Shown here piece after piece: positions 38,949-62,962 of a stretch of 64,000 nucleotides of DNA. A program made the position numbers and the translations under genes. Under the pieces are notes generated by a model. That model made no database searches, had not been told where the DNA came from, and saw only the letters and a program-made list of their open reading frames with translations. The DNA comes from Streptomyces sp. NBS 14/10 (GTDB taxonomy: Bacteria; Actinomycetota; Actinomycetes; Streptomycetales; Streptomycetaceae): the NCBI RefSeq assembly GCF_002224125.1, contig NZ_NCSM01000054.1:123625-187624 (forward strand), read 5' to 3'. How positions within the stretch are numbered: the stretch's first letter is position 1; each line of letters opens with the position of its first letter.

Positions 38949-38982
38949 CCGCGATCGTCCGGATGAAGCCCCGGTGGGTGGT

Positions 38983-39508: not shown

Positions 39509-39655
39509 GCCGCCTGCCGGGCCGAGGAGCCAGCCACGGAGATCATCAGATGGCTTCTTAGTCAGAAGGCGCGGGGAACGTTTTGGCTCGGTCCTGCCTC
39601 CTGGCATGCCGAAGCGGGCCCTCAGGAGGCCCGCCGAAGGCGAGAGGTGTTTCCC

Positions 39656-40561: not shown

Positions 40562-40565
40562 ACGG

Positions 40566-41569: not shown

Positions 41570-41645
41570 TACTGCCTCGAGGCTGGGCGCATGACGCGGG
41601 GCGGCCGTGGTCAGGCTGTGCCGAACGATCCGGACGCGGCCCCGC

Positions 41646-43031: not shown

Positions 43032-43096
43032 GGTGAAGGGCCCGGATCAGGGACTTCCGATCCGTCGCCACCACTCATCGGGGAGGGGTTGCCTCC

Positions 43097-45314: not shown

Positions 45315-45643
45315 GTGTGCGGCGCCTTTCGGGACCCGGGGATGGGTGGGTCCGCCGTCGTACGGCAAGGGACTCGTGCTGGCTTGAAGCGAAGTTATCA
45401 ATGGGGACCGGGGGCCGCAGCCTCTTGGGCACAAGGACAAGGCTTATCTCGGCCTGAGTGAAGCCTGAGAACCGGTATATTCCCGCCGATGATAGGGCTC
45501 GTATACCCCGCCGGGTATGCCTTGCGGTCGGGTGTGCACCCTCGTTACTGTGCCAAAAAGGAACCGGGGGGTGTCCTTTGAGCCAATTTCGAATTCAACA
45601 AGACGACGGTACGTCCATTGCTGGAATTGAGGGGGAAGTGGGC
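45315..45643. other. 329-bp divergent intergenic region (MFS exporter / regulator)
   Basis: This gap separates the divergent exporter and LuxR-type regulator genes. Its right part (about 45470-45640) is AT-richer than the rest and the frame upstream of the regulator has poor third-position GC, so it is non-coding leader with promoters for both directions. I see no clear operator; a TTG at 45578 could be an alternative regulator start. Confidence 0.5.
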
Positions 45644-46426
45644 GTGAGGGGGGCGATTCGGGCGGAGCCGCAAACGGGGGCCGACCACCTCGAACAGACC
45701 CTCGGGCAGGCGCTGCACCTGCTCGAGTCCGCCGTGCGCCACCACCGGCGCGCCACCCTCGCCTGTGTGACGGCCGACCTGCCCGTGGAGGGCGAGGCCG
45801 TGGCCGGATGGGTGGCCCGGCTGGTGCTGCGGGCCGAAGAGGACGTGATCTGGTCGCTGCCGGAGGTCGCCTCCGACGAGCACGCCAAGCTGACCGCCCA
45901 GACGTTCGCGCAGCTTCTGGACAAGGGCGTCCGGGTCAGGCTGCTGTGTCCGCAGGCGGTCATCCGGGGCGCGCGCTGGCAGCGGACCGTGGGTGAGCTG
46001 GGGCCCCGCGTGGAGGTGCGGGTGTCCAGCGCCGTACGCCAGGAGCTGGTCGTGGTGGACGGCGCCGCGGTCATCGCCCCCGACGCGGCGCCGGGGGAGC
46101 CGGGCGGATCCCGGGCCTCGATGATCCAGAACTCGACCGTGGCCGACATGCTGTACGGGCTGCTGTGCGGCATGTGGGACGCGGCGCAGCGCCCGACCCG
46201 GCCGCTGTCCTTCGAGGGCGGGGCGCGGGGCAGGGTGCTGCGCGAGGTCCTGACCCTGATGGCAGAGGGCTACAAGGACGACGCGGCGGCCCGGAAGCTC
46301 GGGCTTTCGGTGCGTACGTACCGGCGCTATGTGGCCGACATCATGCGGGACCTGAGGGTCGAGTCGCGTTTCCAGGCCGGAGTGCGGGCGGTGCGCGCGG
46401 GGCTCATGGAGCCATACCCCGAGTGA
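45644..46426 (+). CDS. LuxR-type (HTH) transcriptional regulator, paralogue 3 (cluster-edge)
   Basis: A 260-residue regulator of the same family as those at 30921 and 31807: N-terminal effector helix (DHLEQTLGQALHLLESAVRHHRR) and C-terminal HTH (YKDDAAARKLGLSVRTYRRYV, RVESRFQAGVRAVRAG). I start it at GTG 45644 because GAGGGGG precedes it by 8 bp and the region upstream to the TTG at 45578 has atypical codon use. It contains no TTA codon, unlike its two paralogues. It lies directly upstream of the biosynthetic operon and is the likely pathway activator. Confidence 0.82.
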   Translation: MRGAIRAEPQTGADHLEQTLGQALHLLESAVRHHRRATLACVTADLPVEGEAVAGWVARLVLRAEEDVIWSLPEVASDEHAKLTAQTFAQLLDKGVRVRLLCPQAVIRGARWQRTVGELGPRVEVRVSSAVRQELVVVDGAAVIAPDAAPGEPGGSRASMIQNSTVADMLYGLLCGMWDAAQRPTRPLSFEGGARGRVLREVLTLMAEGYKDDAAARKLGLSVRTYRRYVADIMRDLRVESRFQAGVRAVRAGLMEPYPE

Positions 46427-46851: not shown

Positions 46852-47103
46852 ATGGCCGCCATCGTCGAAGAGCGCCAGGAAACAATCAAGGAAATCGTCA
46901 CGGATATCCTTGAGATAGATCCGGAAGAGGTCACCGAGACCAGCCTCTTCAAGGAAGAACACGACGCGGATTCGCTGCGGGCCATAGAGATTCTGGCGGC
47001 CCTGGAAAAGGAGTTCAACGTCGTCATCCCGCAGGCGCAGCTCAGCCGCATGATCAACCTCGAGGGTGTCTACGAGGTCGTCTCCGAAGCGGCCGGCTGG
47101 TAA
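46852..47103 (+). CDS. acyl carrier protein 1
   Basis: An 83-residue carrier protein whose Ser41 in DADSLRAIEIL is the phosphopantetheine attachment site. It is acidic and all-helical, and begins the biosynthetic operon with GGAGGTG ahead of its ATG. The D-A-D-S-L version of the DSL motif is slightly unusual. The stop is 37 bp before the first ketosynthase gene. The second ACP at 60046 is only distantly similar, so the two may serve different ketosynthase pairs or stages. Confidence 0.92.
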   Translation: MAAIVEERQETIKEIVTDILEIDPEEVTETSLFKEEHDADSLRAIEILAALEKEFNVVIPQAQLSRMINLEGVYEVVSEAAGW

Positions 47104-47140: not shown

Positions 47141-48376
47141 ATGCAGGGTCAGCCGGCCCGCAGGGTCGTGATAACGGGTCTCGGAACGGTGTCCGGCATC
47201 GGTGTCGGCACCGCCGAGTTCCTTGCCGGACTGCGGTCCGGGAAGAGCGCCGCGAAGCCGATCACCGCTTTCGACACCGAGGGGTTCGACCACGCCACGG
47301 CGTGCGAGATCACCGACTTCGACCCCGGCGAATGGATCCGGCACCTCGATGTCCGGACCCTCGGCCGGGCCAGCCAGTTCTCCGTATCGGCCGCCCGAAT
47401 GGCGGTGGCCGACGCCGGACTGACCGAGCACGAGCTGCGGGACGTCCCGACGCTGATCTCCGTCGGCACCACCGACGGCGAGTCCAGGGACCTGGATCAC
47501 CTGGTCGAGGTGGAGGTCGACCAGGGGCCCGAGCAGATGGACGCCGTCGTCGCCCGCCGGGTGCCCGCCGGGCGGCTCTCCGCCGCGATAGCCCAGGAGT
47601 TCGGCCTCACCCGGGTGGAAGCCGTCACCCTCCCCACCGCCTGCGCGGCGGGGAACTACGCGATCGGCTACGGCTTCGACGCCATACGCGGCGGAGACGT
47701 GGACTTCGCACTGTGCGGCGGCGCCGACGCACTCTGCCGCAAGACGTTCACCGGCTTCTACCGGCTGGGCACCATCGCCCCCGAGCGCTGTCAGCCATTC
47801 GACAAGGACCGCAAGGGAATCCTCACCGGTGAGGGCGCCGGCATATTGCTGCTGGAGAGTCTGGAATCGGCGCTCGCCCGCGGCGCCCGTATCTACGCGG
47901 AAGTCCTCGGATACGGCCTCAACTGCGATGCGCACCATCCCGTCGCGCCCCACCAGGACAGCGTGGCCCGCTGTATGCGGATCGCCCTGGAGAATGCCGA
48001 AGTCAAGCCGGAGGAAGTCGACTTCATCTCCGCGCACGGCACCGGAACCAAGGCCAACGATGTCACCGAGGCGCGCGCCATCCGCCAGGTCTTCGGGGAG
48101 GACGACCCGCCCCGCACCGTATCCGTCAAGTCGATGATCGGCCACACCATGGGGGCCGCCAGCGCGCTGGCCGCCATCGCCTGCTCCCTCGCCCTCACCG
48201 AGGGCTTCATCCCGCCGACCATCAACCACGCGGAGACCGACCCCGAGTGCGCGCTCGACGTCGTGCCCAACCGGGCCGTCGCCGCCGATGTGAAGATCGT
48301 GCAGAACAACGGCCTGGCCTTCGGCGGCAACAACGCCGTCGTGATCTTCGGCAAGCGCGACACGGACTGGTCATGA
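47141..48376 (+). CDS. 3-oxoacyl-ACP synthase 1, catalytically complete (KS-alpha type)
   Basis: A 411-residue FabF-like ketosynthase. The Cys-His-His set is intact: Cys168 in PTACAAGNYAIG, His299 in SAHGTGTKAND, His335 (with Lys330) in KSMIGHTMGA. The C-terminal NNGLAFGGNNAVVIFG is standard. It condenses malonyl-ACP with the growing acyl chain. ATG 47141 follows AGGCAGGG. It overlaps the next ketosynthase gene by 4 bp (ATGA) and starts a run of six genes coupled in this way. Its likely catalytic-site-lacking partner is not adjacent; the KS-like protein at 57816 is a candidate. Confidence 0.93.
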   Translation: MQGQPARRVVITGLGTVSGIGVGTAEFLAGLRSGKSAAKPITAFDTEGFDHATACEITDFDPGEWIRHLDVRTLGRASQFSVSAARMAVADAGLTEHELRDVPTLISVGTTDGESRDLDHLVEVEVDQGPEQMDAVVARRVPAGRLSAAIAQEFGLTRVEAVTLPTACAAGNYAIGYGFDAIRGGDVDFALCGGADALCRKTFTGFYRLGTIAPERCQPFDKDRKGILTGEGAGILLLESLESALARGARIYAEVLGYGLNCDAHHPVAPHQDSVARCMRIALENAEVKPEEVDFISAHGTGTKANDVTEARAIRQVFGEDDPPRTVSVKSMIGHTMGAASALAAIACSLALTEGFIPPTINHAETDPECALDVVPNRAVAADVKIVQNNGLAFGGNNAVVIFGKRDTDWS

Positions 48377-49575
48377 GCCAGCTGGTGACCGGCGCGGGCG
48401 CCGTGGCGAGTGTGGGCGAAGGCGTCGACGAGGTCTTCGCGGCGCTGTGCGCGGGCACCAGCGGACGATGTGAACTGCGCGGCTTCGACCCGGACAGATA
48501 CCGGGCGCGCCACGCGTACGAGATCGACGACCGCCCCGCCACGGGCGGCGACATACCCGGCCGCGCCACCGCGTGGCTGCTGCGCGCCGTCGCCGAGGCC
48601 GCCGCCCAGGCCGGCCTCGGCGACGATCTGAGCCGGGTGCCGGTCCTGGTCGGCACCGGCCTGCGGGAGCTGCGCTCCGCCGAACTGGCGTGGCGCGACG
48701 GCACCCCCTTCGACCCCGACCGGCTGCACTTCGGCCCCGCGCTGCGCGCCCGCTTCGGCGCGGAGCGCAGCTACACTTTCTCGGGCGCCTGCTCGGCCTC
48801 CCTGTACGCGCTCGCCCTGGCCGCCGATCTGCTGGCCACCGGCGCCGAGGACACCGTGGTCGTGGCCGGGGTCGACACCCTCACCGAGTCCATGTTCGGC
48901 CTCCTGGACCGGGTCCACGCCGAGCCGCCCGAGCGCGTCCAGCCCTTCGACCGGGCGCGCCGCGGGGTGCTGATGGGCGACGGCGCGGCGGCGGTGGTGC
49001 TGCGGCGGGACGAGCCGCAGGGGGAGAAGCCGCCGGGGGGCGGGGCCGCCGGTGTGCTTTTGGGGCGGTTGCGCGCCGTCAGCATGAACTGTGACGCGCG
49101 TCATGTCACCGCTCCCGACCCCAAGGGGATCGCCGAGGCGGTGCACGAGGCGCAGTGGCGGGCAGGCGTCAAACCGTGCGACATCGACCTGGTCCTGCTG
49201 CACGGCACCGGCACCCTGCTCAACGACGAGGCGGAGGCGACGGCCATCGCCGAGGTCTTCGGCCACGACGTGGGGTCGCCCCTGATGACCGCCATCAAGT
49301 CCATGACCGGCCACACTTCCGGCAGCTCCGGGCTGCTGAGCCTGATCGTCGCGCTCAAGTCGCTGTCCACGGGCCAGGTGCCGCCGACCCTCGGCCTGAC
49401 CGACCCGGTCGCCGAGGCGGCGGACTTCCGCTTCGTACGGGAGCGGATCGAGGGCGCCGAGCTGAACGTCGCGCAGATCGACGCCTTCGGGTTCGGCGGT
49501 GTCAACGCGGTGGCCATCGTGGAGCGGGTGGGCGCGGGGGCGGGCGCGGGTGCGGGTGGGAGGGCTGGGTCATGA
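48373..49575 (+). CDS. 3-oxoacyl-ACP synthase 2, catalytically complete
   Basis: A 400-residue ketosynthase. Cys140 in FSGACSASLYAL, His in LLHGTGTLLND and Lys/His in IKSMTGHTSGSS are all present. The N-terminal part is shorter and more diverged than in the first KS. The last residues are a Gly/Ala-rich tail (GAGAGAGGRAG). It overlaps both neighbours by 4 bp. The next gene encodes a ketosynthase homologue without catalytic residues, so these two form a KS/chain-length-factor-type heterodimer in my reading. Confidence 0.9.
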   Translation: MSQLVTGAGAVASVGEGVDEVFAALCAGTSGRCELRGFDPDRYRARHAYEIDDRPATGGDIPGRATAWLLRAVAEAAAQAGLGDDLSRVPVLVGTGLRELRSAELAWRDGTPFDPDRLHFGPALRARFGAERSYTFSGACSASLYALALAADLLATGAEDTVVVAGVDTLTESMFGLLDRVHAEPPERVQPFDRARRGVLMGDGAAAVVLRRDEPQGEKPPGGGAAGVLLGRLRAVSMNCDARHVTAPDPKGIAEAVHEAQWRAGVKPCDIDLVLLHGTGTLLNDEAEATAIAEVFGHDVGSPLMTAIKSMTGHTSGSSGLLSLIVALKSLSTGQVPPTLGLTDPVAEAADFRFVRERIEGAELNVAQIDAFGFGGVNAVAIVERVGAGAGAGAGGRAGS

Positions 49576-50654
49576 CACTCAAGGCCCCTCACAACTTCGA
49601 GGAAATCGTTGTCACCGGTGTCGGGCTGGCCCTGCCCGGCGCCGATACGCCCCGGGAACTGCTGCGCGCCATCGGTGAGTCTGGTGTGGACCGGCCGTAC
49701 GAGCCCTTCGACACGGGCGCCCGTATCGGCCGCCGCGGCCACCGTTACAAGGACCGCGCGACCCAACTGGCCCTGTGCGCCGCGCAAGACGCGCTGCGGG
49801 ACGCCGCCCTGATCCCCGGCGACAGCGAGGAGCTGACCGTGCCGGGCGGGACGGTGGGCGTCGTCGCCAGCTCCAACCTGGGCAACCTGGACACCGCGTG
49901 CCTCACGGCCGCCGCCATCGCCGAGGACTCGGTGGCCGGCCTCAGCCCCATGGGCCTGCCGAACGCCTCGAGCAACGTGGTCGCCTCCTGGGCGGCCATC
50001 CGCTTCGGCCTGCGCGGCCCCAACCTGATGCTGTGCAACGGCGCCACCTCCGGCCTGGACGCCGTCCACTGGGCCGCCACGATGGTGGCCGCCGGGCGGG
50101 TGCGCCGCGCGCTGGTGATCGGCGTCGAGACGCATAACGCGGTGGTTGAGGGGCTGTTGTGCGGTTCGCCCGGCGGCTCCACCTCCACCGAAGACCTGCT
50201 GCTCGACGGGGCGGGCGCCCTCGTCGTCGAGGGCGCCGCCTGGGCCCGCGACCGGGGCGTCCAGCCCGCGGCCGTCCTGGGCCGCTACGCACGCCGGACC
50301 GAACTCGCCACGTGCGTACGGGCGTTGCTGCCCGACGACGCCGCGCCCGGGGTCTGGTTCACTCCCGAGGGCTACGGCATGCCCCGCGACACGAGCGCCG
50401 CTGCCGCCCCCGTCCCCGACACCGTTCCGCGACACGACCTCACCACCGCCTTCGGCCGCGCCTCCGGCGCGCTGGGCGTGCTGCAGTGCGCCGCCGCGGT
50501 CGGCTGGCTGGGCACGGCCGAGGGCCGGGCCGACGCCGGGGACGCGCTGATCACCAGCGGCGACGACACCACGGACGCCGTGGCCGCGCTGCTGCTCAGC
50601 CCTCCCGGTTGGCCCGCCGCCGCCCCCCGGCAGCCGGGCGGAGCCGCCGCGTGA
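49572..50654 (+). CDS. ketosynthase-like protein without active-site Cys (CLF-like 1)
   Basis: A 360-residue thiolase-fold homologue of ketosynthases. At the catalytic Cys position it has Ala158 (CNGATSGLDAV against the usual GCTSGLDAV), and the two His motifs are gone (GVWFTPEGYGM; FGRASGALGVL). This is the pattern of a non-condensing partner such as the chain length factor of type II PKS, where it shapes the channel for the growing chain. It overlaps KS 2 upstream and the hydrolase-thioesterase gene downstream, so the likely partner is KS 2. Confidence 0.85.
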   Translation: MTLKAPHNFEEIVVTGVGLALPGADTPRELLRAIGESGVDRPYEPFDTGARIGRRGHRYKDRATQLALCAAQDALRDAALIPGDSEELTVPGGTVGVVASSNLGNLDTACLTAAAIAEDSVAGLSPMGLPNASSNVVASWAAIRFGLRGPNLMLCNGATSGLDAVHWAATMVAAGRVRRALVIGVETHNAVVEGLLCGSPGGSTSTEDLLLDGAGALVVEGAAWARDRGVQPAAVLGRYARRTELATCVRALLPDDAAPGVWFTPEGYGMPRDTSAAAAPVPDTVPRHDLTTAFGRASGALGVLQCAAAVGWLGTAEGRADAGDALITSGDDTTDAVAALLLSPPGWPAAAPRQPGGAAA

Positions 50655-52549
50655 ACACCGCATACGTCCCGGGGAGATACGTCGAGGTCCGCCTGATCCG
50701 CCCGGCTGCCCCCGACGGCGCCGCCCGCGGGCGCGTGTTGTTACTGCACGGGCTGGCCGGCGGCGCCTCTGTCTGGGAAAGCTCCAGCGGACTCGTCGAC
50801 CCGGCCTGGGAGGTGTGGGCGGCCGATCTTCCCTGGAGCGGCTTCTCGCGGCCCGGCTGGCCGGACCGCCCGGTCACCCACTGGGTGGCGGAGGCCGTGG
50901 CCCGGGTGCCCGGCGGGCCCGACGTGATCGCCGGCCACTCCTTCGGAGCCGCCGCGCTGCTCTCCTGGCTGGCCGAGACGTCCGCCGAGGAACACGGGCC
51001 CGCCGAGGACCACGCGCCCGCCGAGGTCTCCGGGGTCATTCTCGTCTCTCCCTTCTACCGGGCGCGCAAGCACGATTTCGACTGGGCCACGCTGTCGTTC
51101 TACGTCAACAACTTCGACCAGATCCTCGAAGACGGCCTGCGCGTCAGCGCCGGTGACCGGCTGACCCCCGACGTACGACGCCACATGGCGCTGAAGGTCC
51201 GCGAACACGTCGGCCCGTACGGCTGGATGCGCTTCTTCGAGACGTATCTGGCGACCCCTCGGCTGCCGGTCGAGCGCCTGCGGACCCCGTTCCTCATCGT
51301 CAGCGGGGAACGGGACAAGGCCGCCCCGGCCGCCGAGGCCATAGGGCTGGCAAAGGCGCTGCCCGACGCCGATGTGCGCGTGCTCACCGACGTCGGCCAC
51401 TTCCCGATGGTCGAGCGCGCCGACGAGTTCTCGGAGGCTGTCAACGGCTTCCTCCGCACTATTGCCGCCCGGCACCCCCGGCCGGGCGAAGCCCTTTCTG
51501 TTCCCGATGGAGTACACCTGATGACAGCTGCGGTCGCGCCGACACTGACCAAGGCCCTGCTCGCCGATACCACCACCGTGCGGCTGCGTCCCCGCTACGA
51601 GGGTTCCAACATCTGCACCTGGATCGGCTTCAAGCATGTCAACTACCTCGTCGAAGAGGCCGTGCTGATCCACTTCGCGCACTGCGGGGTGCCCGCCCGG
51701 CTGCTGTACGAGGAGTACGGGCTCGGCCTCGACATCGTCGGCCTGGACAGCCGCATCCTGCACGCGTTCCACATGGACGACGAGGCGGAGGCGGAGGTGG
51801 TGCCGGACACCTCGGCCGACGACGGCACCCTCGGCTTCCGGGTGACCATCCGGGTCGACCGCGACGATTCGACGCTCAAGGCCGTCACCTCCAAGGTGCG
51901 TGTCTCGCTGCGTACGGACACCTATCTGGACCCGCCCATCGAGGCGCCTGAGGAGCTCGCCCCCTTCACCGTCGGCCGGCTCGGCGGGCACGAGGGCGCG
52001 GCGGAGGCGGCCGGGGCCTGTGTGGCGGCGGACGCGGTGTCGGCGGCGGACGCGGCGCTGTCGGCGGGCGGGGACGAGACGGCGGTGCTGGCGGCCCTGA
52101 CCGAGGGCCGTAACGCCTACGCCTGGAAGTGGAACATCACCTATCCCTACTGCCACTTCACCGAGCGCCTTCAGATGTCCGGCTATCTGCGGCTCATGGA
52201 GGAGGCCAAGGACCGCTTCGTCCTCGACCGCGGCATATCCATCAAGACGCTGCTGGACGACCGCAAGTGGATCCCCGTCGTGCCGCACTCCGTGATCCGC
52301 GTCGTCGACGAGGCGCTGATGGAGGAAGACCTGTACACGGTCTACACCGTGGAGGAGATCTTCAAGGACTTCACCTACACCTCCCGCATGGACTGCTACG
52401 TCATCCGCGACGGCAGGCTCACGCTCACCGCGACCGGCCGGATCGTGCACGGCTACGCGGTGATCGAGAACCGCCGCGACTGGCATCTGGTCCCTTTCGA
52501 CCAGCGGGTGCTGAGCGCGCTCGGCGGGAAGCCCGGAAGCGCCGGCTGA
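50651..52549 (+). CDS. fusion of alpha/beta hydrolase and double-hotdog thioesterase
   Basis: A 632-residue protein in one open frame from GTG 50651. Residues 1-280 are an alpha/beta hydrolase with Ser97 (AGHSFGAAA), Asp222 (SGERDKAAP) and His250 (DVGHFPMVE). From Met291 a hotdog thioesterase-like region follows: one hotdog about 300-430 (GFKHVNYLVEEAVLIHFAHCG, YGLGLDIVGLDSRI) and a second about 475-625 (PYCHFTERLQMSGYLRLMEEAKD). It could release the acyl chain from ACP or CoA. ATG 51521 (Met291) has GGAG 9 bp upstream, so a separate thioesterase may also be made. Codon 31 is TTA (50741-50743), linking it to bldA. Confidence 0.82.
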   Translation: MNTAYVPGRYVEVRLIRPAAPDGAARGRVLLLHGLAGGASVWESSSGLVDPAWEVWAADLPWSGFSRPGWPDRPVTHWVAEAVARVPGGPDVIAGHSFGAAALLSWLAETSAEEHGPAEDHAPAEVSGVILVSPFYRARKHDFDWATLSFYVNNFDQILEDGLRVSAGDRLTPDVRRHMALKVREHVGPYGWMRFFETYLATPRLPVERLRTPFLIVSGERDKAAPAAEAIGLAKALPDADVRVLTDVGHFPMVERADEFSEAVNGFLRTIAARHPRPGEALSVPDGVHLMTAAVAPTLTKALLADTTTVRLRPRYEGSNICTWIGFKHVNYLVEEAVLIHFAHCGVPARLLYEEYGLGLDIVGLDSRILHAFHMDDEAEAEVVPDTSADDGTLGFRVTIRVDRDDSTLKAVTSKVRVSLRTDTYLDPPIEAPEELAPFTVGRLGGHEGAAEAAGACVAADAVSAADAALSAGGDETAVLAALTEGRNAYAWKWNITYPYCHFTERLQMSGYLRLMEEAKDRFVLDRGISIKTLLDDRKWIPVVPHSVIRVVDEALMEEDLYTVYTVEEIFKDFTYTSRMDCYVIRDGRLTLTATGRIVHGYAVIENRRDWHLVPFDQRVLSALGGKPGSAG

Positions 52550-53790
52550 TGTACTCCGACGCGACCGACGTACTGGTCACCGGCCTCGGCGCGCTGAGCT
52601 GTCTGGGCTCGGGCACCGACGCCCTGTGGCGGGGCATGCACACGGGGCGCAGCGCGCCGACGCGGGTGCCCGACCCGCTCGCGCACATGGACCACCCGCA
52701 TATGTATCTGGTGCCCGAGGCCGATCTGCCGAAGGGGCCCGAGGAGCAGGACGGGCTGCCGCTGGGGCGAGCGTCGCAGTTCGCCATCGCGGCGGCGAGC
52801 GAGGCGGTCGAGAGCGCGGGGCTGACCGGGCTGGCCGGGGTGGACCCGCGCCGGGTGGCCGTCTCGATCAGCAGCGGTATGGGCGACTCCGACGTGCACG
52901 AGCGGCGGCGCGCCGGCGGGCCCGCGATCCACGACCGCTGGGCGCCCGTCTTCCCGGTGGCCTCGGCGGTCGGCGGATGGCTCGGCGCGCAGGGCGCCAA
53001 CACCAGCCTCACCAACGCCTGCGCCGCCAGCGGTTACGCGCTGTCCGTCGCCGCCGATCTGATCCGCTCCGGCGAGGCGGACGTGGTCGTGGCCGGCGGC
53101 ACCGAGGGGTACTCCCGTGTCGCCCTGGCCTGTTTCAACCGGCTGGGCGCGATCGACCCCGAGCGGTGCCGCCCGTTCGCCGCCGACCGGCGCGGGACGA
53201 TCTTCGGGGAGGGCGCCGCCGTACTGGTCCTGGAGTCGGCGGCGCATGCGCGCGAGCGCGGCGCCAGGACGGTCTACGCACGCCTGGCGGGCACCGGCTG
53301 GAGCTGCGACGCCCACCACGCGACCGCCCCCGAGCCCGGCGGCGCGCAGATCGAGCGCGCGATGCGCGAGGCCCTGCGGGAGGCGGACCCGGCCCTGGAG
53401 GCGGCGTTGGACCCGGTTTCCGGGGCGGGGGCGGCACGGCTCGGGTTCGTTGTGCCGCACGGCACCGGCACCGAGCTCAACGACGTCGTGGAGGCCCGGG
53501 CGCTGTCCACCGTGCTCGGCGAGGCGGCCCCCCGGACCCCGCTCTACAGCGTCAAGGCGCTCCTCGGCCACACCGGCGGCGCGGCGGGCGCATTCGCCGC
53601 ACTGGCCGCCGCCCTGGTGCTGCACCACAAGACGCTCCCGCCGAACGTGCCGGTCGGCCCGCTCGACCCCGAGTGCCAGGTGCCGCTGCCCGCCGGGCCC
53701 ACCCCCATGACCGCGCCCTACGGCCTGGTCAACGCCTATGCCTTCGGGGGCAACAATGTCTCGCTCGTGCTCCAGGAGGCGGGCCGATGA
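52549..53790 (+). CDS. 3-oxoacyl-ACP synthase 3, catalytically complete
   Basis: A 413-residue ketosynthase with Cys158 in LTNACAASGYAL, His in VPHGTGTELND, and Lys/His in SVKALLGHTGGAAG. ATG 52549 overlaps the previous stop (TGATG). It is followed, with ATGA overlap, by a ketosynthase-like gene without active site, giving the second KS/partner pair in the operon. Confidence 0.92.
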   Translation: MYSDATDVLVTGLGALSCLGSGTDALWRGMHTGRSAPTRVPDPLAHMDHPHMYLVPEADLPKGPEEQDGLPLGRASQFAIAAASEAVESAGLTGLAGVDPRRVAVSISSGMGDSDVHERRRAGGPAIHDRWAPVFPVASAVGGWLGAQGANTSLTNACAASGYALSVAADLIRSGEADVVVAGGTEGYSRVALACFNRLGAIDPERCRPFAADRRGTIFGEGAAVLVLESAAHARERGARTVYARLAGTGWSCDAHHATAPEPGGAQIERAMREALREADPALEAALDPVSGAGAARLGFVVPHGTGTELNDVVEARALSTVLGEAAPRTPLYSVKALLGHTGGAAGAFAALAAALVLHHKTLPPNVPVGPLDPECQVPLPAGPTPMTAPYGLVNAYAFGGNNVSLVLQEAGR

Positions 53791-54779
53791 CCGCTGATCT
53801 GATCGTGACGGGCGTCGGGACGGTGCGCCCCGAGGGCTTCGACTTCAAGACCGCGCTCGGGCCTCGCGGCTACAAGTATCTGCCCACCGCCTCCCAGTAC
53901 TTCCTCGCCGCCGCCAAACGGGCCCTGGCCGACGCCGGTCCCGGCACTCTGGAGGCGACCCGTGCCGAGCGCCGCGGCGCCGCGGTCGGCACCAACAGCG
54001 CCGCCGCCTCGCTGCACGACGCGATGGACCGTACGGTCATGGAGACCGGCGCCGCCGATCTGAGCCCGGCCACCGCCCCGTACTTCTCCATCAACCTGTT
54101 CGGCAGCCGCCTGGCCACCGAACACGAGCTGAAGGGCTTCAACCTCACCTTCGCCAGCCCCCGGGTCGCCGGTCTGGAAGCCCTCGAGACGGGTCGGCGC
54201 GCTCTCGCCGCCGGCCGGGCCCGCTGGCTGCTGGCCGGGGCCACCGAGCAGGTGCTGGCCGAGGGCGAGCCGGGGGCGGAGACCTCCGAGGCCGGGGCGG
54301 TCGCCCTGGTGCTGGAGCCGGCGGCCGCCGTCGCGGCCCGTGGCGGGCGGGCGTACGGCCGGGTGGCGGTCCGCTCGTTCTTCCTGCCGCCGTCCGTGGC
54401 CGCCGCCCGGGGCGGCGCGGAGCGCGCCCGGGCGCTGATCGACGGCGCGCTCGATCCACTGGGCCATGTCCCCGACGGCCCGCTGCCCATCACGGCCGTA
54501 CTCGACGACTCCCCGGTGGGCGAGGCCTTCGCGGCGGCGCTGGGGGAGCGGGCCGAGTACGTGCCCGCGGGCGCCGGCTGCCTGGAGCCGGTGGCACGGG
54601 TCGCCGCCGCCCTGGCGGGCGGGACCGGCCCGGCGCGCGTAGTCCTCACCGCGGCGGCGGAGGGGAACGCCGCGGTGTGTCTGGTCACTCCCGGCGGCCC
54701 CGATACCGGAGTTGGAACACAAGCCGAAGCACAAGCCGAAGCACAAGCCGAAGCACGGGCGGAAGAAGGCGGAGGGTGA
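53787..54779 (+). CDS. ketosynthase-like protein without active-site Cys (CLF-like 2)
   Basis: A 330-residue, short and strongly degenerate ketosynthase homologue. At the Cys position it has Arg126 (TFASPRVAGLEAL), and neither HGTGT nor the GHT motif remains. The last 20 residues are an Ala/Glu/Gln repeat encoded by three 12-bp units (54721-54756). It can only be a structural or chain-length partner, presumably for the ketosynthase encoded just upstream. Confidence 0.8.
   Translation: MTADLIVTGVGTVRPEGFDFKTALGPRGYKYLPTASQYFLAAAKRALADAGPGTLEATRAERRGAAVGTNSAAASLHDAMDRTVMETGAADLSPATAPYFSINLFGSRLATEHELKGFNLTFASPRVAGLEALETGRRALAAGRARWLLAGATEQVLAEGEPGAETSEAGAVALVLEPAAAVAARGGRAYGRVAVRSFFLPPSVAAARGGAERARALIDGALDPLGHVPDGPLPITAVLDDSPVGEAFAAALGERAEYVPAGAGCLEPVARVAAALAGGTGPARVVLTAAAEGNAAVCLVTPGGPDTGVGTQAEAQAEAQAEARAEEGGG
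54721..54756 (+). repeat. three tandem 12-bp repeats at a gene end
   Basis: AAGCCGAAGCAC occurs three times in a row (54721, 54733, 54745) in the last codons of the CLF-like 2 gene, encoding the Gln-Ala-Glu-Ala repeat. Confidence 0.9.
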
Positions 54780-54786
54780 GCGGCTG

Positions 54787-55578
54787 ATGATCACACCACT
54801 CAAGGGCTCCTGGTGCCTGATCCTGGGTGCCTCCAGCGGCATGGGCCTGGCCACCGCCCAGGAGCTGGCGCGCGAGGGCGTCAACATCCTGGGCGTGCAC
54901 TTCGACACCGCGGAGGGGCAGGACAAGGCCGCCGTCGCACGGGAGGAGCTGTGCGCCCACGGCGTCCAGGCGCACTTCTTCAACGCCAACGCGGCCTCCG
55001 CCAGAACCAGGGAGGAACTGCTGCCGCGGTTCGCCGAGCTGACCGGCGAGTCCGGCGTCAGGATCCTGGTGCACTCCCTCGCCTTCGGCACCCTGCTGCC
55101 CTTCGTCGCACCCGAGGGCGAGCCGGGGGTGACCTCCCGCCAGATGAACATGACGCTCGATGTGATGGCCCACTCCCTCGTCTACTGGACGCAGGACCTG
55201 TTCACCGCGGGCCTGCTGCGCGAGGGCGCCAAGGTGTACGCGATGACCAGCGCGGGCGGCGCCCGCGTCCTGCCCAGCTACGGCGCCGTGTCCGCGGCCA
55301 AGTCGGCCCTGGAGGCGCATGTACGCCAGCTCGCCGTGGAGCTCGCCCCCTCCGGTATCGCCGTCAACGCGCTGCGTGCCGGGGTGACGCTGACCCCTTC
55401 CATGGAACGCATCCCGGACAGCGGCCGGATCGCCGAGTACGCGCGCGGGGTCAATCCGCACCGCAGGCTGACCCGGCCCGAGGACGTCGCCGAAGCCATC
55501 TCCCTGCTCTCCCGCACCGACTCCTCCTGGATCACCGGCAATGTGATCGGAGTCGACGGCGGCGAAAACCTGACCTGA
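54787..55578 (+). CDS. FabI-type enoyl-ACP reductase-like SDR
   Basis: A 263-residue short-chain reductase. The Rossmann loop is LGASSGMGLA (13-22) and the catalytic Tyr165 and Lys172 are separated by six residues (SYGAVSAAKSAL), the Y-x6-K spacing of FabI enoyl reductases; classical SDR ketoreductases have Y-x3-K. Other FabI-like parts: ILVHSLAFG and VNALRAGVTLTPSM. So it probably reduces a trans-2-enoyl-ACP double bond. ATG 54787 has GGAGGG upstream. Its presence means the product is partly saturated or that only selected double bonds are removed. Confidence 0.85.
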   Translation: MITPLKGSWCLILGASSGMGLATAQELAREGVNILGVHFDTAEGQDKAAVAREELCAHGVQAHFFNANAASARTREELLPRFAELTGESGVRILVHSLAFGTLLPFVAPEGEPGVTSRQMNMTLDVMAHSLVYWTQDLFTAGLLREGAKVYAMTSAGGARVLPSYGAVSAAKSALEAHVRQLAVELAPSGIAVNALRAGVTLTPSMERIPDSGRIAEYARGVNPHRRLTRPEDVAEAISLLSRTDSSWITGNVIGVDGGENLT

Positions 55579-55652
55579 CCTGACCTGACCTGACCTGACC
55601 TGACCTGAGCCGACCTGACCCGAGCCGACCTGACCTGAGCCGAACGCAGAAC
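55568..55652. repeat. CTGAC pentanucleotide tract between genes
   Basis: Starting inside the last codons of the enoyl reductase gene, CTGAC is repeated about seven times without interruption, then continues in degenerate form (GAGCCGAC) to about 55652. It encodes nothing and contains the upstream gene's stop. A microsatellite of this kind is rare in Streptomyces and could slip. Confidence 0.85.
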
Positions 55653-55670
55653 GCACGCCGAGGACCGACG

Positions 55671-56636
55671 ATGACCAGTGCAGAGACCGACGGCGCACCG
55701 CCCCAGCGGCCGGGCGGCGCCCTGCGCGCCCTCGCCGCACCGCTGCTGGGCATCGTCGGCGCGGCCAAGCACGCGTATCAGCTCTACCACCCGCCGCTGC
55801 CCGCCGGCCGCGCCCGCACCCCGGCCGACAAGGGTCTGCCGACGCACCACAAGACCGTGGTGGCCTCCTTCGACGGCATCCCGCTGCGCGCGTGGGTGGT
55901 GCCGGGTGCCGGGCCGCACACCGTGATCGTGTGCCACGGCATGGGCCGTACCAAGTCCATGGCGCTCGGCCATATCGAACTGCTCCACCGGGCGGGCCAC
56001 CACGTCGTCGCGTACGACATGCGCAACCACGGGGACAGCGGCGCGGACCGGGCGCTGGGCCGTATGGCCGAGCGCTACACCAGCGATCTGCGGGACGTAC
56101 TCCTCGCCACCGCCGCCGACCCCCGGCTGCGCGGCGGCGCCATCGCCCTGTACGGCTTCTCCTTCTCGACCTGGCCCGCGCTCCAGGTGGTGCGCCGCTC
56201 CCGGGTGCCGGTGGCCGCCGTGATCGCGGACAGCGGCCCGGCGTACGACGTCCCGGCCGGGCTGCGCCACTTCGCCCGCCTTCGCGGGCAGATCATGCGG
56301 AGTTGGCTGCGTGGGCCGCTCACGCTCGCCGTCCACGAGCGCGCCTTCGCGTTCTTCGCGATGCGGATGCTGGGCCTCGCCGACTGGCCGCCGGACCTGT
56401 CCGCGTACGACACCCGGCTGATGTTCATCGGCAGTGGCGACGACACCTTCGTCCGCCCCGACGCCATCGCGCGGACCGCCCGCCACTACCCCCGCGCCGA
56501 GTACTGGACGGCGGCCGGGAGCCCGCATATGAGGGGGCTGCGGTTCGACGCGGCGGAGTACGAGAAGCGCGTCCTCGGCTTCTTGGCCGAGGCGTTCGAC
56601 GCGGCTGAAGAGGGCCGTGGGGGTGGGCGACCATGA
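55671..56636 (+). CDS. alpha/beta hydrolase with GFSFS elbow, copy 1
   Basis: A 321-residue alpha/beta hydrolase with an unusual nucleophile elbow GFSFSTWPAL, the acid in GSGDDTFV and the His in AGSPHMRG. The first 40 residues include a hydrophobic segment (LRALAAPLLGIVGAAKHAYQL), so it may be membrane-associated. Its closest relative in the window is the gene at 62963. ATG start at 55671. The stop overlaps the next gene start (ATGA). It may cyclise, hydrolyse or proof-read the acyl intermediate. Confidence 0.82.
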   Translation: MTSAETDGAPPQRPGGALRALAAPLLGIVGAAKHAYQLYHPPLPAGRARTPADKGLPTHHKTVVASFDGIPLRAWVVPGAGPHTVIVCHGMGRTKSMALGHIELLHRAGHHVVAYDMRNHGDSGADRALGRMAERYTSDLRDVLLATAADPRLRGGAIALYGFSFSTWPALQVVRRSRVPVAAVIADSGPAYDVPAGLRHFARLRGQIMRSWLRGPLTLAVHERAFAFFAMRMLGLADWPPDLSAYDTRLMFIGSGDDTFVRPDAIARTARHYPRAEYWTAAGSPHMRGLRFDAAEYEKRVLGFLAEAFDAAEEGRGGGRP

Positions 56637-56959
56637 CCGACCATCTGCTCGTGGAAAGCGGCGGGCCGGAGTCGGGGCCCGCCTGCGAGCGGTTCGTCGG
56701 CGACGCCGTACGGCTGCTCCAGGACGGCCACCGCGTGGTGCTGTTCCTCGTCGAGAACGGGGTGACCGCCGCGCTGCCCGGCGCCTCGCACCGCGTCGCG
56801 ACCTTCCTGCGTGACGGCGGCGAGCTGTGGGTGGACGCCTTCTCGGCCGCCCAGCGCGCCCTCCCCGCCGAGGACCTGCTGCCCGGCTCCCGGCTGGCGG
56901 ACATGGACGAGGTGGCGGACCGGCTGCTGGAACCCCGGCTACGGGCGGTGTGGCACTGA
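56633..56959 (+). CDS. DsrE-fold small protein 1
   Basis: A 108-residue protein with an alpha/beta core of DsrE/DsrH character (VGDAVRLLQDGHRVVLFLVENGVTAALPG), no Cys in the usual DsrE place, and a helical end (ADMDEVADRLLEPRLRAV). It overlaps the hydrolase gene upstream and the next DsrE-like gene downstream. In sulfur-relay systems DsrE/F/H subunits assemble as a hexamer and pass a persulfide; a role here is inferred from the trio. Confidence 0.7.
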   Translation: MTDHLLVESGGPESGPACERFVGDAVRLLQDGHRVVLFLVENGVTAALPGASHRVATFLRDGGELWVDAFSAAQRALPAEDLLPGSRLADMDEVADRLLEPRLRAVWH

Positions 56960-57366
56960 TGGCCTGGTCGCCGCCCCCCACCGACGTGCTGCTCCAGCTC
57001 CTCGGCGCCCCGCACCAGACCGAACTCGTCAGCTCAGCGCTGCGGCTGACGACCGCGCTGCTCGGCAAGGGAGCCCGGGTCCAGGTATGGGCCTGCGGCG
57101 ACGCCACCCGGCTGACCTGGACGGGCCTCGGCGAGACCAAGCCGCGCAACTACGCCGACTGGGAGCGGGAGTACCCCTCCGGCCCCCGGATCGTGCGCGA
57201 GCTGCTGACCGACCACCCGGACCGCCTCTACTGGTACGTCTGCGCCTTCTGCGCCGAGGAGCGGGGCACCGCCGACCAGATCCCGCAGGTGCGCAGACGG
57301 CCCATGTTCAAGTACGCCGAGCACGTGGCCGTGGCGGGCAAGTGTCTGTCCCTGGGGGTGCACTGA
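56959..57366 (+). CDS. DsrE-fold small protein 2
   Basis: A 135-residue DsrE-like protein: VLLQLLGAPHQTELVSSALRL, VQVWACGDATRLTW and a later WYVCAFCAEERG. Three Cys in these motifs (VWAC, CAFC) could be redox- or persulfide-active. ATG 56959 overlaps the previous stop (TGATG). Confidence 0.7.
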   Translation: MAWSPPPTDVLLQLLGAPHQTELVSSALRLTTALLGKGARVQVWACGDATRLTWTGLGETKPRNYADWEREYPSGPRIVRELLTDHPDRLYWYVCAFCAEERGTADQIPQVRRRPMFKYAEHVAVAGKCLSLGVH

Positions 57367-57368
57367 CG

Positions 57369-57770
57369 ATGCCCGAGACGACGGCGCGCTGGCTTGTGAT
57401 GATCGAACGGGCCTACCGGGGCGCGGTCGAGCGGCAGTTCGCCGACGCCCTGTCCCTGGTCACCGAGTTGCACCGGCAGAGCGTCGGCGGCACCGACCTC
57501 GCGCTGCGCGGCCTCGCCGTCAGCTACGCCCTGACCACCGACTACGAACCGGCGGTACGCATCGGCGGCCGCACCCTGGACACCCTTCCCGATCCGCGCG
57601 CCACGGTGCGCGACATCCTCGCCGCGGGGGTGGCCGTACTCGTCGAGGAACCCGACCTCACCGCGCTCGGCCGCACCGCCGCGGACCGGCTGCTGACCGG
57701 CGTACGGGTCGTCGAAGGAGGCGGACTCGCCGCCCGCTGGTTCTCGTACGAACAGGTGTGGTTCCTGTGA
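57369..57770 (+). CDS. DsrE-fold small protein 3
   Basis: A 133-residue protein with the DsrF-like start (RAYRGAVERQFADALSLVTELHRQ) and DLALRGLAVSYALTTDY, then ATVRDILAAGVAVLVEE. No Cys is conserved. It is 2 bp behind the preceding gene. With the two genes before it, it makes up a DsrEFH-like trio in the middle of the polyketide operon. Confidence 0.7.
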   Translation: MPETTARWLVMIERAYRGAVERQFADALSLVTELHRQSVGGTDLALRGLAVSYALTTDYEPAVRIGGRTLDTLPDPRATVRDILAAGVAVLVEEPDLTALGRTAADRLLTGVRVVEGGGLAARWFSYEQVWFL

Positions 57771-57815
57771 CCGGGCCCACCTCCCCCGCCCTCTCCCGAA
57801 GGAGTGCACGGATCC

Positions 57816-58949
57816 ATGGTCTTCGCCACCGCCACCAGCGGCCCGGTCATCTCCGCCTGGGCCGCCATATCTCCGCTCGGCCTGCACGGGGCGGACTTCG
57901 CCACCGGGCTGCGCTCCGGCCGCAGGGCCGGTAAGCCGCTGGACCCCGAGGAGTGGTCGGTGCCCTTCCACGAGGCGTGCCTCGTGCCCGACTTCCACAT
58001 CAAGCAGATCCTGGGCCGCAAGGGCACCCGCTCCATGGACCGGGCCACCGGCCTGGCCGTGACCGCCATCGGCCGGCTGCTCACCGACGAGCGGCCGGAA
58101 CGCCTCGCCGGCGTGGGCGAGGACACCGGTGTGGCGCTGGGCACCAGCACCGGAAGCGCCCAGTCCATCATGGACTTCACCCGCGACTCCCTGGTCGGCG
58201 AGCGCCCCTTCTTCGTGGACCCGGCCCGGTTCCCCAACACGGTCATGAACTGCGCGGCCGGGCAGACCGCCATCTGGCACGGGTTCAAGGGCCCCAACAC
58301 CACCATCGCGGGCGGCCGCGCCACCGGGCTGCTCACCCTCCAGTACGCGCTGCGGCTGCAGCGCGCCGGGCGGGCCGCCGCCGTGCTGTGCGGGGCCGTC
58401 GAGGAGTTCTCCTCCGCCCGCGCCTGGCTGGAGTGGCACTCCCGCGCCGACGGCGACACCGCGGCCGTGCTCGGCGAGGGCGCGGCGGTGTGGCTGCTGG
58501 AGCCGGACGCGGCCGCGCGCGAACACGGGCGCGTCGGCCTGGTCGAGGTGGCGGGCCTCGAGTTCGGCTTCGCCGCCGCCCCCGAGGGCGGCGCCGGGCG
58601 GGCCCGTACGGTGCTCGCCGACGTGGTACGGCGGCTGCTGGACCGTACGGGCGTGGAGCCCGGCGGGCTCTGGGCGGTCGCCGATTCGCAGGCGCCGGGC
58701 GCGGAGGGGGAGGCGGAGCGCGCCGCCCTCGCGGAGGTGCTGGACGGCCATGAGCCGCTGCGGATATCGGCCGTCGACTCCATCGGGGACACCTACGCCG
58801 CCTCGGCGGCCTTCCAGATCACCGCCGTGCTGGCGCTCGCCGAGCGGTCGGACACCGCCCCCGGCAGCCTGGCCCTGGTCACCTCGGTGGACCGGGACGG
58901 CGTGGTCGGCGCGGCCCTGCTTCGGACCCGGCCGCAAGCGACCACGTAA
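57816..58949 (+). CDS. ketosynthase-like protein without active-site Cys (CLF-like 3)
   Basis: A 377-residue homologue of ketosynthases of the Ketoacyl-synt_2-like kind (VMNCAAGQTAIWHGFKGPN is typical). The Cys position is Arg168 (AGGRATGLLTL), and no HGTGT or GHT motif exists. ATG 57816 has AAGGAG 11 bp upstream; GTG 57804 is less likely. It is a non-condensing partner, and since the other two partners lie next to their KS, this one may pair with KS 1 at 47141. Confidence 0.8.
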   Translation: MVFATATSGPVISAWAAISPLGLHGADFATGLRSGRRAGKPLDPEEWSVPFHEACLVPDFHIKQILGRKGTRSMDRATGLAVTAIGRLLTDERPERLAGVGEDTGVALGTSTGSAQSIMDFTRDSLVGERPFFVDPARFPNTVMNCAAGQTAIWHGFKGPNTTIAGGRATGLLTLQYALRLQRAGRAAAVLCGAVEEFSSARAWLEWHSRADGDTAAVLGEGAAVWLLEPDAAAREHGRVGLVEVAGLEFGFAAAPEGGAGRARTVLADVVRRLLDRTGVEPGGLWAVADSQAPGAEGEAERAALAEVLDGHEPLRISAVDSIGDTYAASAAFQITAVLALAERSDTAPGSLALVTSVDRDGVVGAALLRTRPQATT

Positions 58950-58982: not shown

Positions 58983-60005
58983 ATGACGAACGACGACACA
59001 GCGAACACAGAGAACAGAGCGAACACAGAGAACAGAGCGAACACAGAGAACAGAGCGAGCACAAGCGAGGATGTGCGCACCGCCCTTGTCTTCCCGGGCC
59101 AGGGCGCCCAGAAGCAGGGCATGGGCGAGGTCTGGCGGGAGGCCGAGTCCTGGCCGCTGGTCGCCGGGATCTCCGAGCACACCGGAGTGGACGTCGAGGA
59201 CCTGCTGCTGAAGGCCGACGACGACACGCTGCGCCGCACCGACCTGGCCCAGATCGCCGTGTTCAGCACCGAAGTGCTCGCCCACCGCGAGGCGGCAGCG
59301 GCCGGCGTGCTGGGCGAGGTGGTCGCGTGCGCGGGACACAGCCTGGGCGAGTACACGGCGCTGTACGCGGCGGGGGCGCTGTCGCTCGCCGACGCCGCGC
59401 GCCTGGTCGCCGCCCGCGGCCGTGCCATGCGCGGCTGCGCCGAGCGCTCGCCCGGCACCATGGCCGCGGTGGTCCGGCTCGACGAGGAGACCGTGGCGGG
59501 GCTGGTCGCGCGGGTCCGGGAAGCGGGCCAGGAGGTGTGGGTCGCCAACGTCAACGCACCCGGCGCCATCGTCGTCTCGGGCACCGCCGACGGCGTGGCG
59601 GGGCTCGGCGAGGCGGCCGTCGAGAGCGGCGGCAAGGTGATCCCGCTCAAGGTCGGCGGCGCCTTCCACAGCCCGCGCATGGCGGACGCGGCGGCCGAGC
59701 TGGAAGCGGCGCTGGCCGCCGCGGAGTTCGCCGCCGAGCACATGCCCGTCGTCGCCAACGTGGACGCCCGCGCGTACGCAGGCGGCGAGCAGTGGCCGGA
59801 CCTGGAGCTCCGCCAGCTCACCAGCCGGGTCCGCTGGGAGGAATGCGTCCGCACGCTGGCCGACGAGCTCGGCTGCGCCCGGTTCGTGGAGCTCGGCCCC
59901 GGCCGTCAGTTGACCGGGATGATCCGCCGCATCGCCAAGGAGGCGGTGACCGTCCCGGTCGACTCGTCCGCCGCCCTGGCCAAGCTGACCGCCGTATCCG
60001 CCTGA
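58983..60005 (+). CDS. malonyl-CoA:ACP transacylase
   Basis: A 340-residue FabD-like acyltransferase that loads malonyl on the ACPs. The active-site Ser120 is in AGHSLGEYTAL, the N-terminal LVFPGQGAQKQGMG and the His motif GGAFHSPRM are present. Its first 26 residues include three ANTENR repeats from 18-bp units (59001-59054), outside the fold. Most reducing type II systems borrow FabD from fatty acid synthesis; this operon has its own. Confidence 0.92.
   Translation: MTNDDTANTENRANTENRANTENRASTSEDVRTALVFPGQGAQKQGMGEVWREAESWPLVAGISEHTGVDVEDLLLKADDDTLRRTDLAQIAVFSTEVLAHREAAAAGVLGEVVACAGHSLGEYTALYAAGALSLADAARLVAARGRAMRGCAERSPGTMAAVVRLDEETVAGLVARVREAGQEVWVANVNAPGAIVVSGTADGVAGLGEAAVESGGKVIPLKVGGAFHSPRMADAAAELEAALAAAEFAAEHMPVVANVDARAYAGGEQWPDLELRQLTSRVRWEECVRTLADELGCARFVELGPGRQLTGMIRRIAKEAVTVPVDSSAALAKLTAVSA
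59001..59054 (+). repeat. three tandem 18-bp repeats at the MAT 5' end
   Basis: GCGAACACAGAGAACAGA occurs at 59001, 59019 and 59037, in frame, encoding the N-terminal ANTENR repeats. The unit is AT-richer than the surrounding genes. Confidence 0.9.
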
Positions 60006-60045: not shown

Positions 60046-60300
60046 ATGACCGACACCGCCGCCGCCCTGGACCTGGAGGAGCTGCGCGTCTTCGTCGCCG
60101 ATGTCCTCGACGTCGAGGAGGAAGAGGTCACCGACGACGCCGACTTCGTCAAGGAGCTGGGCGTCGACTCCCTCATGGCCCTGGAGGTCATGGTCGTCCT
60201 GGAGAAGAAGTACTCGGTGAAGCTCCAGGAGCAGGAGATGAAGGAGATCACCTGTCTGCGGAAGGTCTATGACCTGCTCGCCTCGAAGCTGGAGAAGTGA
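60046..60300 (+). CDS. acyl carrier protein 2
   Basis: An 84-residue acidic carrier protein with Ser42 in LGVDSLMALEV, the classic phosphopantetheine site, and the helix KKYSVKLQEQEMKEI. ATG 60046 has GAGGAGA upstream. Together with ACP 1 the operon has two carrier proteins; this one is closest in sequence style to fatty-acid-type ACPs. Confidence 0.94.
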   Translation: MTDTAAALDLEELRVFVADVLDVEEEEVTDDADFVKELGVDSLMALEVMVVLEKKYSVKLQEQEMKEITCLRKVYDLLASKLEK

Positions 60301-60301
60301 G

Positions 60302-62029: not shown

Positions 62030-62044
62030 GGCATCGTCATTTGA
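62015..62044 (+). repeat. tandem 15-bp duplication across a stop codon
   Basis: GGCATCGTCATCTGA (62015-62029) is directly followed by GGCATCGTCATTTGA (62030-62044). The first copy ends the ketoreductase gene. Confidence 0.9.
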
Positions 62045-62085
62045 TTCGCACGGAACAGAAACGGAACGGAAAGGGGGGATCAGCG

Positions 62086-62850: not shown

Positions 62851-62962
62851 GCCCGCCGCCCGGATGCCCCGTACCGCTCAGACGAACCATCCACCCGAGA
62901 CGAACGAGACGAGACCCCCGCTGATTCCGCACAGAACCCCCACCCCCGCACGGAGGACGCAG

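Follow-up and report, generated by a model that had tools for sequence, protein, structure and literature searches.

How a single reducing type II polyketide synthase (PKS) uses three ketosynthases (KS) together with three catalytically dead KS-like proteins on one chain is the question raised by an operon of Streptomyces sp. NBS 14/10, located in the window analyzed here, a 64,000-nucleotide stretch (C78:123625-187624) of the 12.1 Mb genome. We consider it likely that the six proteins act as three pairs, of which the first two build a polyene that closes to a ring, whereas the third, with an enoyl reductase (ER) encoded beside it, adds a saturated tail to give an aryl acid. Preceded by a LuxR-type gene (45458), the operon begins with acp1 (46852) and extends along the + strand at least as far as alpha/beta-hydrolase 2 (63892); because contig C78 ends 276 bases past the window, the downstream end of the operon lies outside the view. 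Pfam and motif checks showed that it contains two acyl carrier proteins (ACP), three KS, three KS-like partners, a malonyl-CoA:ACP transacylase (MAT), a ketoreductase (KR), a fused dehydratase (DH), an ER-like short-chain dehydrogenase/reductase (SDR), three hydrolase domains, a double hot-dog protein, a DsbA-like protein, and three small DsrE-like genes (A, B, and C) (Table 1). The motifs comprise DSL in both ACPs, GHSLGE in MAT, and HRYP and GHFPG in DH, and all six KS and KS-like frames are present, uninterrupted and co-directional. No aromatase/cyclase family was found by Pfam among the operon proteins scanned. This inventory bears out a previous sequence-only reading of the window, which had listed the KR, DH, ER, MAT, and two ACPs and the absence of an aromatase/cyclase, with the ER now designated an ER-like SDR that scores below curated cut-offs; its list had lacked the hydrolase/double hot-dog fusion (50651), the hydrolases (55671, 62831), the DsrE-like trio (56633-57770), the DsbA-like protein (62041), and the contig end.

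The division into three active and three degenerate proteins, made in that reading from the window alone, holds throughout their families. In family alignments including the window, the catalytic Cys, His, Lys, and His are kept in 34/34 KS1, 26/26 KS2, and 21/21 KS3 sequences. At the Cys position, the partners contain Ala158 (clfA, 49572), Arg126 (clfB, 53787), and, in clfC, an Arg numbered 172 from the GTG at 57804 or 168 from the ATG at 57816, and none of the 82 partner sequences has a Cys there (one clfA residue being an unread X). The commonest residue at this position is Ala in clfA (14/26) and Arg in both clfB (16/22) and clfC (23/34); thus the Arg, which had been singled out as unusual, is ordinary in these families. 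The Pfam ketoacyl-synthase N-domain was detected in all six proteins and the C-domain only in the three KS. Two trees, one by FastTree (171 rows) and one under a quick LG+C20 mixture model (83 rows), each recovered all six families as single clades, with the three KS families on one side of a branch (support 96 and 97) and the three partners on another (95 and 98). The degenerate partners are therefore not outside the KS/CLF (chain-length factor) clade and form a clade of their own beside the KS. Both clades stand apart from other KS/CLF genes of the same genome that we take, from their adjacency and motifs, to be aromatic-type. With neither an aromatic-type KS/CLF grouping nor an aromatase/cyclase among the proteins scanned, the operon falls outside the aromatic type II PKSs, and its non-aromatic KS-CLF clade, discrete ACPs, KR, and DH place it among the highly reducing ones. 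An AlphaFold2 monomer model of clfB, made from a ten-row alignment, had a predicted local distance difference test score (pLDDT) of 80.3 and a predicted template-modeling score of 0.79; no clfB relatives were found in viral contigs. The short degenerate partners might also be read as cyclization factors of the cispentacin (AmcG) type, making a five-membered ring, in that clfB has only 330 residues and the AmcG model hits clfA with E 1e-6; however, this hit reaches 28.5 bits where the cut-off is 80, neither clfB nor clfC had an AmcG match listed at E 0.01, and an AmcH-like adenylating enzyme was not found among the operon proteins scanned. This disfavored reading is highly improbable and was rejected on the NCBIfam scores.

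Support for the assignment of each KS to a partner came from co-occurrence in related loci. Two sets were used, namely 42 stretches around clfC matches down to E 2.6e-41, the window's own excepted (set 1), and 47 clfB-selected loci (set 2). Stretches shorter than 14 kb were left out (3/42 and 1/47), leaving 39 and 46, and counting the four places common to both sets once gave 81 distinct stretches; families were assigned by the best tblastn match. In set 1, ks2 and clfA were both present in 19 stretches and both absent from 20, ks3 and clfB were both present in 9 and both absent from 30, and ks1-clfC was the sole pair in 19. In set 2, ks2 and clfA occurred together in 40 stretches and were both absent from 6, and ks3 accompanied clfB in 46/46. 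Over the 81 distinct stretches, ks2/clfA were both found in 56 and ks3/clfB in 51, with one member alone in none, although these counts represent non-independent events because the stretches are related to each other. The remaining partner, clfC, and KS1 are near full-length relatives of chains B and A, respectively, of PDB 6kxd, presumably Iga12 and Iga11 of the ishigamide system, which reportedly has a single pair, forms a simple polyene, and lacks a third pair and an ER. Hence the operon could be thought to make an aryl-free polyene carboxylic acid or amide of the ishigamide kind, the ER removing one double bond and no benzene ring being formed. This is very unlikely, given that published accounts (PMC9381841, PMC6510318) count an isomerase and a second pair among the characteristics of ring-forming clusters and that the simple type is likely represented by the 19 set-1 stretches without a second or third pair. 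6KXD itself is described as a typical KS-CLF complex (PMC10698177). Apart from this, a KS and KS-like pair named only '3-oxoacyl-ACP synthase' (PDB 9s5h/9s5i, chains B and C) ranks first or second among the solved matches of KS1, KS2, KS3, clfA, and clfC.

Together with the clades, these results support the three pairs that the sequence-only reading had proposed, 47141-57816, 48373-49572, and 52549-53787, the heterodimers themselves being predicted. The same pairs were assigned in the gla cluster (PMC9381841), and pairs have been validated in the mbg and ysf clusters, with the remark that pairs can occur even with non-adjacent genes (PMC13311259). The novelty that had been implied for three pairs does not hold, as three have already been dissected in ysf and four in mbg (PMC9381841, PMC13311259). 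All eight marks considered, i.e., the three KS, three partners, ER, and DsrE-B, were present in 26/46 clfB-selected stretches, including those of Actinokineospora, Saccharothrix, and Streptosporangium, and in 4/39 clfC-selected ones. A single one of the 47 clfB-selected loci is, by record title, from outside the actinomycetes; this cyanobacterial contig (L131, Nostoc favosum CHAB5714) has the three pairs, the ER, and the genes for the hydrolase and the double hot-dog protein, with identities of 33–68%.

The closest described system is gla, which directs the formation of globisporamic acid in Streptomyces globisporus C-1027 and encodes an acyltransferase (GlaA), a phosphopantetheinyl transferase (PPTase, GlaB), ACPs (GlaD/GlaR), KS (GlaE/F/J), CLFs (GlaG/K/Q), DHs (GlaS/T), a KR (GlaU), and an isomerase (GlaV); disruption of glaE (KS1) led to the loss of compounds 1 and 2 (PMC9381841). 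A gla-like locus of S. anulatus (L103) has the order MAT, PPTase, cytochrome P450, acp1, ks1, ks2, clfA, hydrolase, double hot-dog, ks3, clfB, ER, hydrolase, DsrE-A, -B, -C, clfC, acp2, DH, DH, KR, DsbA, and hydrolase, where acp1 and hydrolase H were seen by tblastn outside the frame list and MAT is cut by the stretch edge. This order fits the gla letters A to W (MAT A, PPTase B, P450 C, acp D, and so on to isomerase V and hydrolase W), of which H, I, L–P, and W carry no function in the text of PMC9381841 compared. Between acp1 and the second hydrolase (D to W), the core genes of the window follow this order too, and the operon is thus a member of an already known kind, sharing with gla the three KS-CLF pairs, two ACPs, acyltransferase, DH, KR, LuxR regulation, and a putative isomerase, and having as many pairs as expected of the cinnamoyl-lipid type (gla/ysf), i.e., two or three. 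It differs in that MAT lies between clfC and acp2, the DH halves are fused, the hydrolase is fused to the double hot-dog protein, and an ER-like SDR is present, whereas an ER is reported absent from gla (PMC9381841). The likeness of the DsbA-like protein (62041-62850), which occupies the GlaV place, to the isomerase is positional.

Other systems resemble the operon less closely. In ysf (youssoufenes), three KS-CLF pairs likewise act in turn, the third taking ring-bearing intermediates, and a glutathione-dependent isomerase is present, but the third pair lengthens C18 to C20–C22 and the product is called a polyene acid (Deng 2021, as cited in PMC9381841 and PMC13311259). Validated KS-CLF pairs are also known from the highly reducing type II PKS of the mbg cluster (o-dialkylbenzenes), for which a cited title names 6-pi electrocyclization, but here they number four (Zhang 2021, as cited in PMC13311259). 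In the type II region of Amycolatopsis PS_44_ISF1, a second KS-CLF pair is co-located with DH and ER, although there are only two pairs and the proposed product is a trihydroxy fatty acid without an aromatic head (PMC11446937). This is the only description of an ER in clusters of this kind within the mostly non-subscription literature consulted; cinnamoyl clusters are said to be generally without one (PMC9381841).

Two features add to the published picture, namely the ER tied to the third pair and the DsrE-like trio. The Tyr and Lys of the Y-x6-K motif in the SDR (54781-55578) occur in 45/45 aligned rows, a spacing that we take to be the catalytic one of FabI/FabL, and the cluster KR has Y-x3-K (Tyr in 80/83 and Lys in 80/83 rows). 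Its best solved matches were FabL 3oic (E 1.4e-23) and FabI 1ulu (E 4.3e-21). In a survey of 392 Streptomyces genomes, where the best 4 to 10 candidates per genome were scored, clfB was defined as the 45 matches of at least 180 bits; weaker rows were sorted by eye into clfA-type (76) and others, which were left out, and a broken clfB in G453 (two pieces, about 1.3–1.5 kb from its ER) is among these weaker rows and uncounted. ER matches at E ≤1e-60 were found in 32/392 genomes, and among the clfB matches listed, 29 of the 32 had a clfB no more than 2 kb away, measured between starts, and one more had a clfB within 25 kb; likewise, 29/32 had a clfC within 25 kb, and 30 of the 45 clfB listed had an ER within 25 kb. 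On the KS3 tree, the ER label requires three changes as compared with 11.8 for shuffled labels, one of the three being a contig end; in these labels, L112 is scored as lacking the ER though its contig ends inside clfB, and the rows hold four places twice. Moreover, clfB was present in all 40 SDR-bearing distinct stretches. The SDR thus tracks ks3-clfB and not the second pair, and 13 of the 19 set-1 stretches with clfA have no SDR, so that a role in oxidizing the cyclohexadiene to benzene, rather than as a chain reductase, appears quite unlikely, even though no other aromatizing dehydrogenase is evident in the operon.

From the observed gene content, catalytic residues, clades, co-occurrence, and ER linkage, we infer the following order of events in this strain. 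KS1-CLF1 (47141 + 57816) would start and extend the chain with KR and DH and no enoyl reduction, and KS2-CLF2 (48373 + 49572) would carry it on in the same manner to a polyene of about C10, in which the DsbA-like isomerase would set a cis bond. Closure of the polyene to an ortho-substituted benzene would follow, a step that the DsrE-like trio may carry out; 6-pi electrocyclization is the ring closure proposed for this class in the literature. Subsequently, KS3-CLF3 (52549 + 53787) would lengthen the ring-bearing acyl-ACP, the adjacent ER fully reducing each added unit, and the hydrolases would release the chain as a carboxylic acid with the general formula Ar-CH=CH-(CH2)n-COOH. Hence the product is probably an ortho-alkylphenyl (cinnamoyl-type) lipid; the earlier prediction of a partly reduced chain, perhaps with ring formation, pointed in the right direction, and its plain polyene is the part that is replaced.

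The proposed late action of KS3-CLF3-ER as a fully reducing module after ring closure fits the chemistry of the gla products. Globisporamic acid is E-13-(2-methylphenyl)-12-tridecenoic acid, and its companions are E-5-(2-methylphenyl)-4-pentenoic acid and E-3-(2-methylphenyl)acrylic acid; the o-methylphenyl head is common to these C10, C12, and C20 products, and what sets them apart is the number of saturated C2 units on the carboxyl side, as expected from one, and then four more, fully reduced extensions following ring closure (PMC9381841). Globisporamic acid has ten CH2 groups, though its cluster is stated to lack an ER, with an unexplained dehydrogenase being listed (PMC9381841). An opposite order, in which KS3-CLF3-ER acts early to build a saturated starter that KS1 and KS2 extend as a polyene, is unlikely, because the gla products keep a constant aromatic methyl end and vary in their saturated part, located on the carboxyl side, and because GlaJ-GlaK resemble YsfJ-YsfK, which take ring-bearing intermediates (PMC9381841). 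It would nevertheless be compatible with locus L067, where acp2, ks3, clfB, and ER are co-directional and the other PKS genes lie apart on the opposite strand, as if the module could act at any point.

The DsrE-like trio is a candidate for the ring-closing cyclase in the late-reduction scheme. Its members A and B scored 18.2 and 16.3 bits, respectively, against the Pfam DsrE cut-off of 22.7, and C gave no match, hence the designation 'DsrE-like'. All three occur together in 6 loci and the window. For member B, 28 homologues at E ≤0.001 were found among 48 candidates, several of them named DsrE or TusD, and Cys 46, 95, and 98 are invariant in 29 rows; its AlphaFold2 monomer model had a pLDDT of 92.3. 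A profile of B gave only weak matches to solved sequences, with YchN (E 0.035) following three spurious-looking SEC13 chains. In the survey, 32/392 genomes gave 39 DsrE-B matches; of these matches, 31 had a clfC within 25 kb and, among the clfB matches listed, 22 had a clfB at that distance, whereas two had neither. In the kitacinnamycin pathway, ring closure is catalyzed by Kcn17-Kcn18-Kcn19 (PMC9321520), of which the trio might, at a guess, be the counterpart. At one locus (L140, G055:C3:3272000-3291999), a DsrE-like trio stands beside a 2439-residue nonribosomal peptide synthetase frame containing condensation, adenylation, and carrier domains; the survey placed neither clfC nor ER within 25 kb of it, nor, among the clfB matches listed, a clfB.

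Several observations weigh against the above scheme. As for the pairing, ks1/clfC were both found in 70 of the 81 distinct stretches, with ks1 alone in 3 and clfC alone in 2; among these five exceptions, L120, L128, and L129 have the match at or near the stretch edge, and L122 and L126 have only a weak 29% ks1 match. Mirror-tree distance correlations over 21 loci were high for all nine KS/CLF combinations (r 0.84–0.94), the cognate KS being top for clfA and clfB and not for clfC, and were therefore not used for pairing. The branching order of the three pairs lacks firm support, since FastTree groups clfA with clfB (90) and ks2 with ks3 (50), whereas the mixture-model tree groups clfA with clfC (47) and ks2 with ks3 (24); because of this disagreement and the low values, we make no statement on it. 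As for the ER, the SDR is below the NCBIfam cut-offs (136.1 versus 328 bits for FabL and 82.2 versus 337 bits for FabI), and 7749/8000 scored candidates match it at E ≤1e-60, those listed being named SDR, enoyl-ACP reductase III, FabI, or 3-oxoacyl-ACP reductase, so that 'ER-like' is the safe name. Furthermore, no ER was seen within the portion read of 11/51 distinct stretches that carry clfB, and GlaL would be an ER by position only. The P450 and PPTase genes of the gla-like S. anulatus locus were not found among the window operon genes. The trio resembles DsrE weakly, and what might connect it to Kcn17-Kcn18-Kcn19 is the gene number, three in each. Finally, the product is predicted for this strain from its genes.

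Table 1 Features of the operon in the window (all positions refer to the window)
Feature	Position	Strand	Evidence
LuxR-type regulator	45458..46426	+	Pfam GerE; positional homologues, 68–77% identical, in four orthologous clusters
acp1, acyl carrier protein	46852..47103	+	PP-binding, DSL motif
KS1, active ketosynthase of conserved pair	47141..48376	+	Pfam; best solved match 6kxd chain A, E 1.2e-172
KS2, active ketosynthase	48373..49575	+	Pfam; Cys140 + His/Lys/His
clfA, degenerate KS partner of KS2	49572..50654	+	Ala158; Pfam, clade, co-occurrence
alpha/beta-hydrolase fused to double hot-dog (4HBT_2-like)	50651..52549	+	Pfam
KS3, active ketosynthase	52549..53790	+	Pfam; Cys158 + His/Lys/His
clfB, degenerate KS partner of KS3	53787..54779	+	Arg126; 330 aa; AlphaFold2 monomer model
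ER-like SDR (FabL/FabI-type, Y-x6-K)	54781..55578	+	NCBIfam best FabL, below cut-off; solved matches 3oic, 1ulu
alpha/beta-hydrolase 1	55671..56636	+	Pfam
DsrE-like trio member A	56633..56959	+	Pfam DsrE E 0.0029, below cut-off
DsrE-like trio member B	56959..57366	+	Pfam DsrE E 0.011, below cut-off; homologues; AlphaFold2
trio member C	57369..57770	+	no Pfam match; position beside A and B
clfC, degenerate KS partner of KS1	57816..58949	+	Arg168 from this start; best solved match 6kxd chain B, E 7.4e-78 (searched from 57804)
malonyl-CoA:ACP transacylase (MAT)	58983..60005	+	Pfam Acyl_transf_1, GHSLGE
acp2, acyl carrier protein	60046..60300	+	Pfam PP-binding, DSL motif
fused dehydratase, two hot-dog halves	60269..61282	+	ApeI-like + FabA/FabZ-like; GHFPG in first half, HRYP in second half
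ketoreductase (FabG-type, Y-x3-K)	61286..62029	+	Pfam
DsbA-like protein, positional counterpart of GlaV/YsfG cis-trans isomerase	62041..62850	+	Pfam DSBA; position versus PMC9381841
alpha/beta-hydrolase 2	62831..63892	+	Pfam

The two gene fusions of the operon are rare in its relatives. The hydrolase/double hot-dog fusion was found in 2/40 loci besides the window, being separate genes in most relatives read, and the fused DH halves in 6/55; both are also present in S. sparsogenes L089, and the nearest named relative by KS1 in the set is S. sparsogenes ATCC 25498 (93%). Such natural fusions suggest that the separate proteins work as complexes. The same genome contains further loci of this family (L044, L045, and L046 on contigs C99, C82, and C34), comprising two simple acp-ks1-clfC loci and, at C34, four KS-like matches in a run with DH, KR, and MAT. 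Outside the operon, at 38000-43700 of the window, a glycoside hydrolase 43 (GH43)/ricin-lectin gene (41646-43031) lies between alcohol dehydrogenase and major facilitator superfamily genes, which adjoin in G069.

Collectively, the operon may represent one type II PKS with two reductive programs switched by the KS-CLF pair, in which the third pair and a dedicated ER add the saturated tail and the DsrE-like trio serves as the ring-closing enzyme; we regard this combined proposal as evenly balanced between right and wrong. If true, the two programs would explain why globisporamic acid has ten CH2 groups. If the third pair has its own ER, the degree of reduction would be set by the pair holding the chain, and the published gla pathway would have to be revised. 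Clusters with several KS-CLF pairs offer a compact system for studying chain hand-over between pairs and the programming of reduction.

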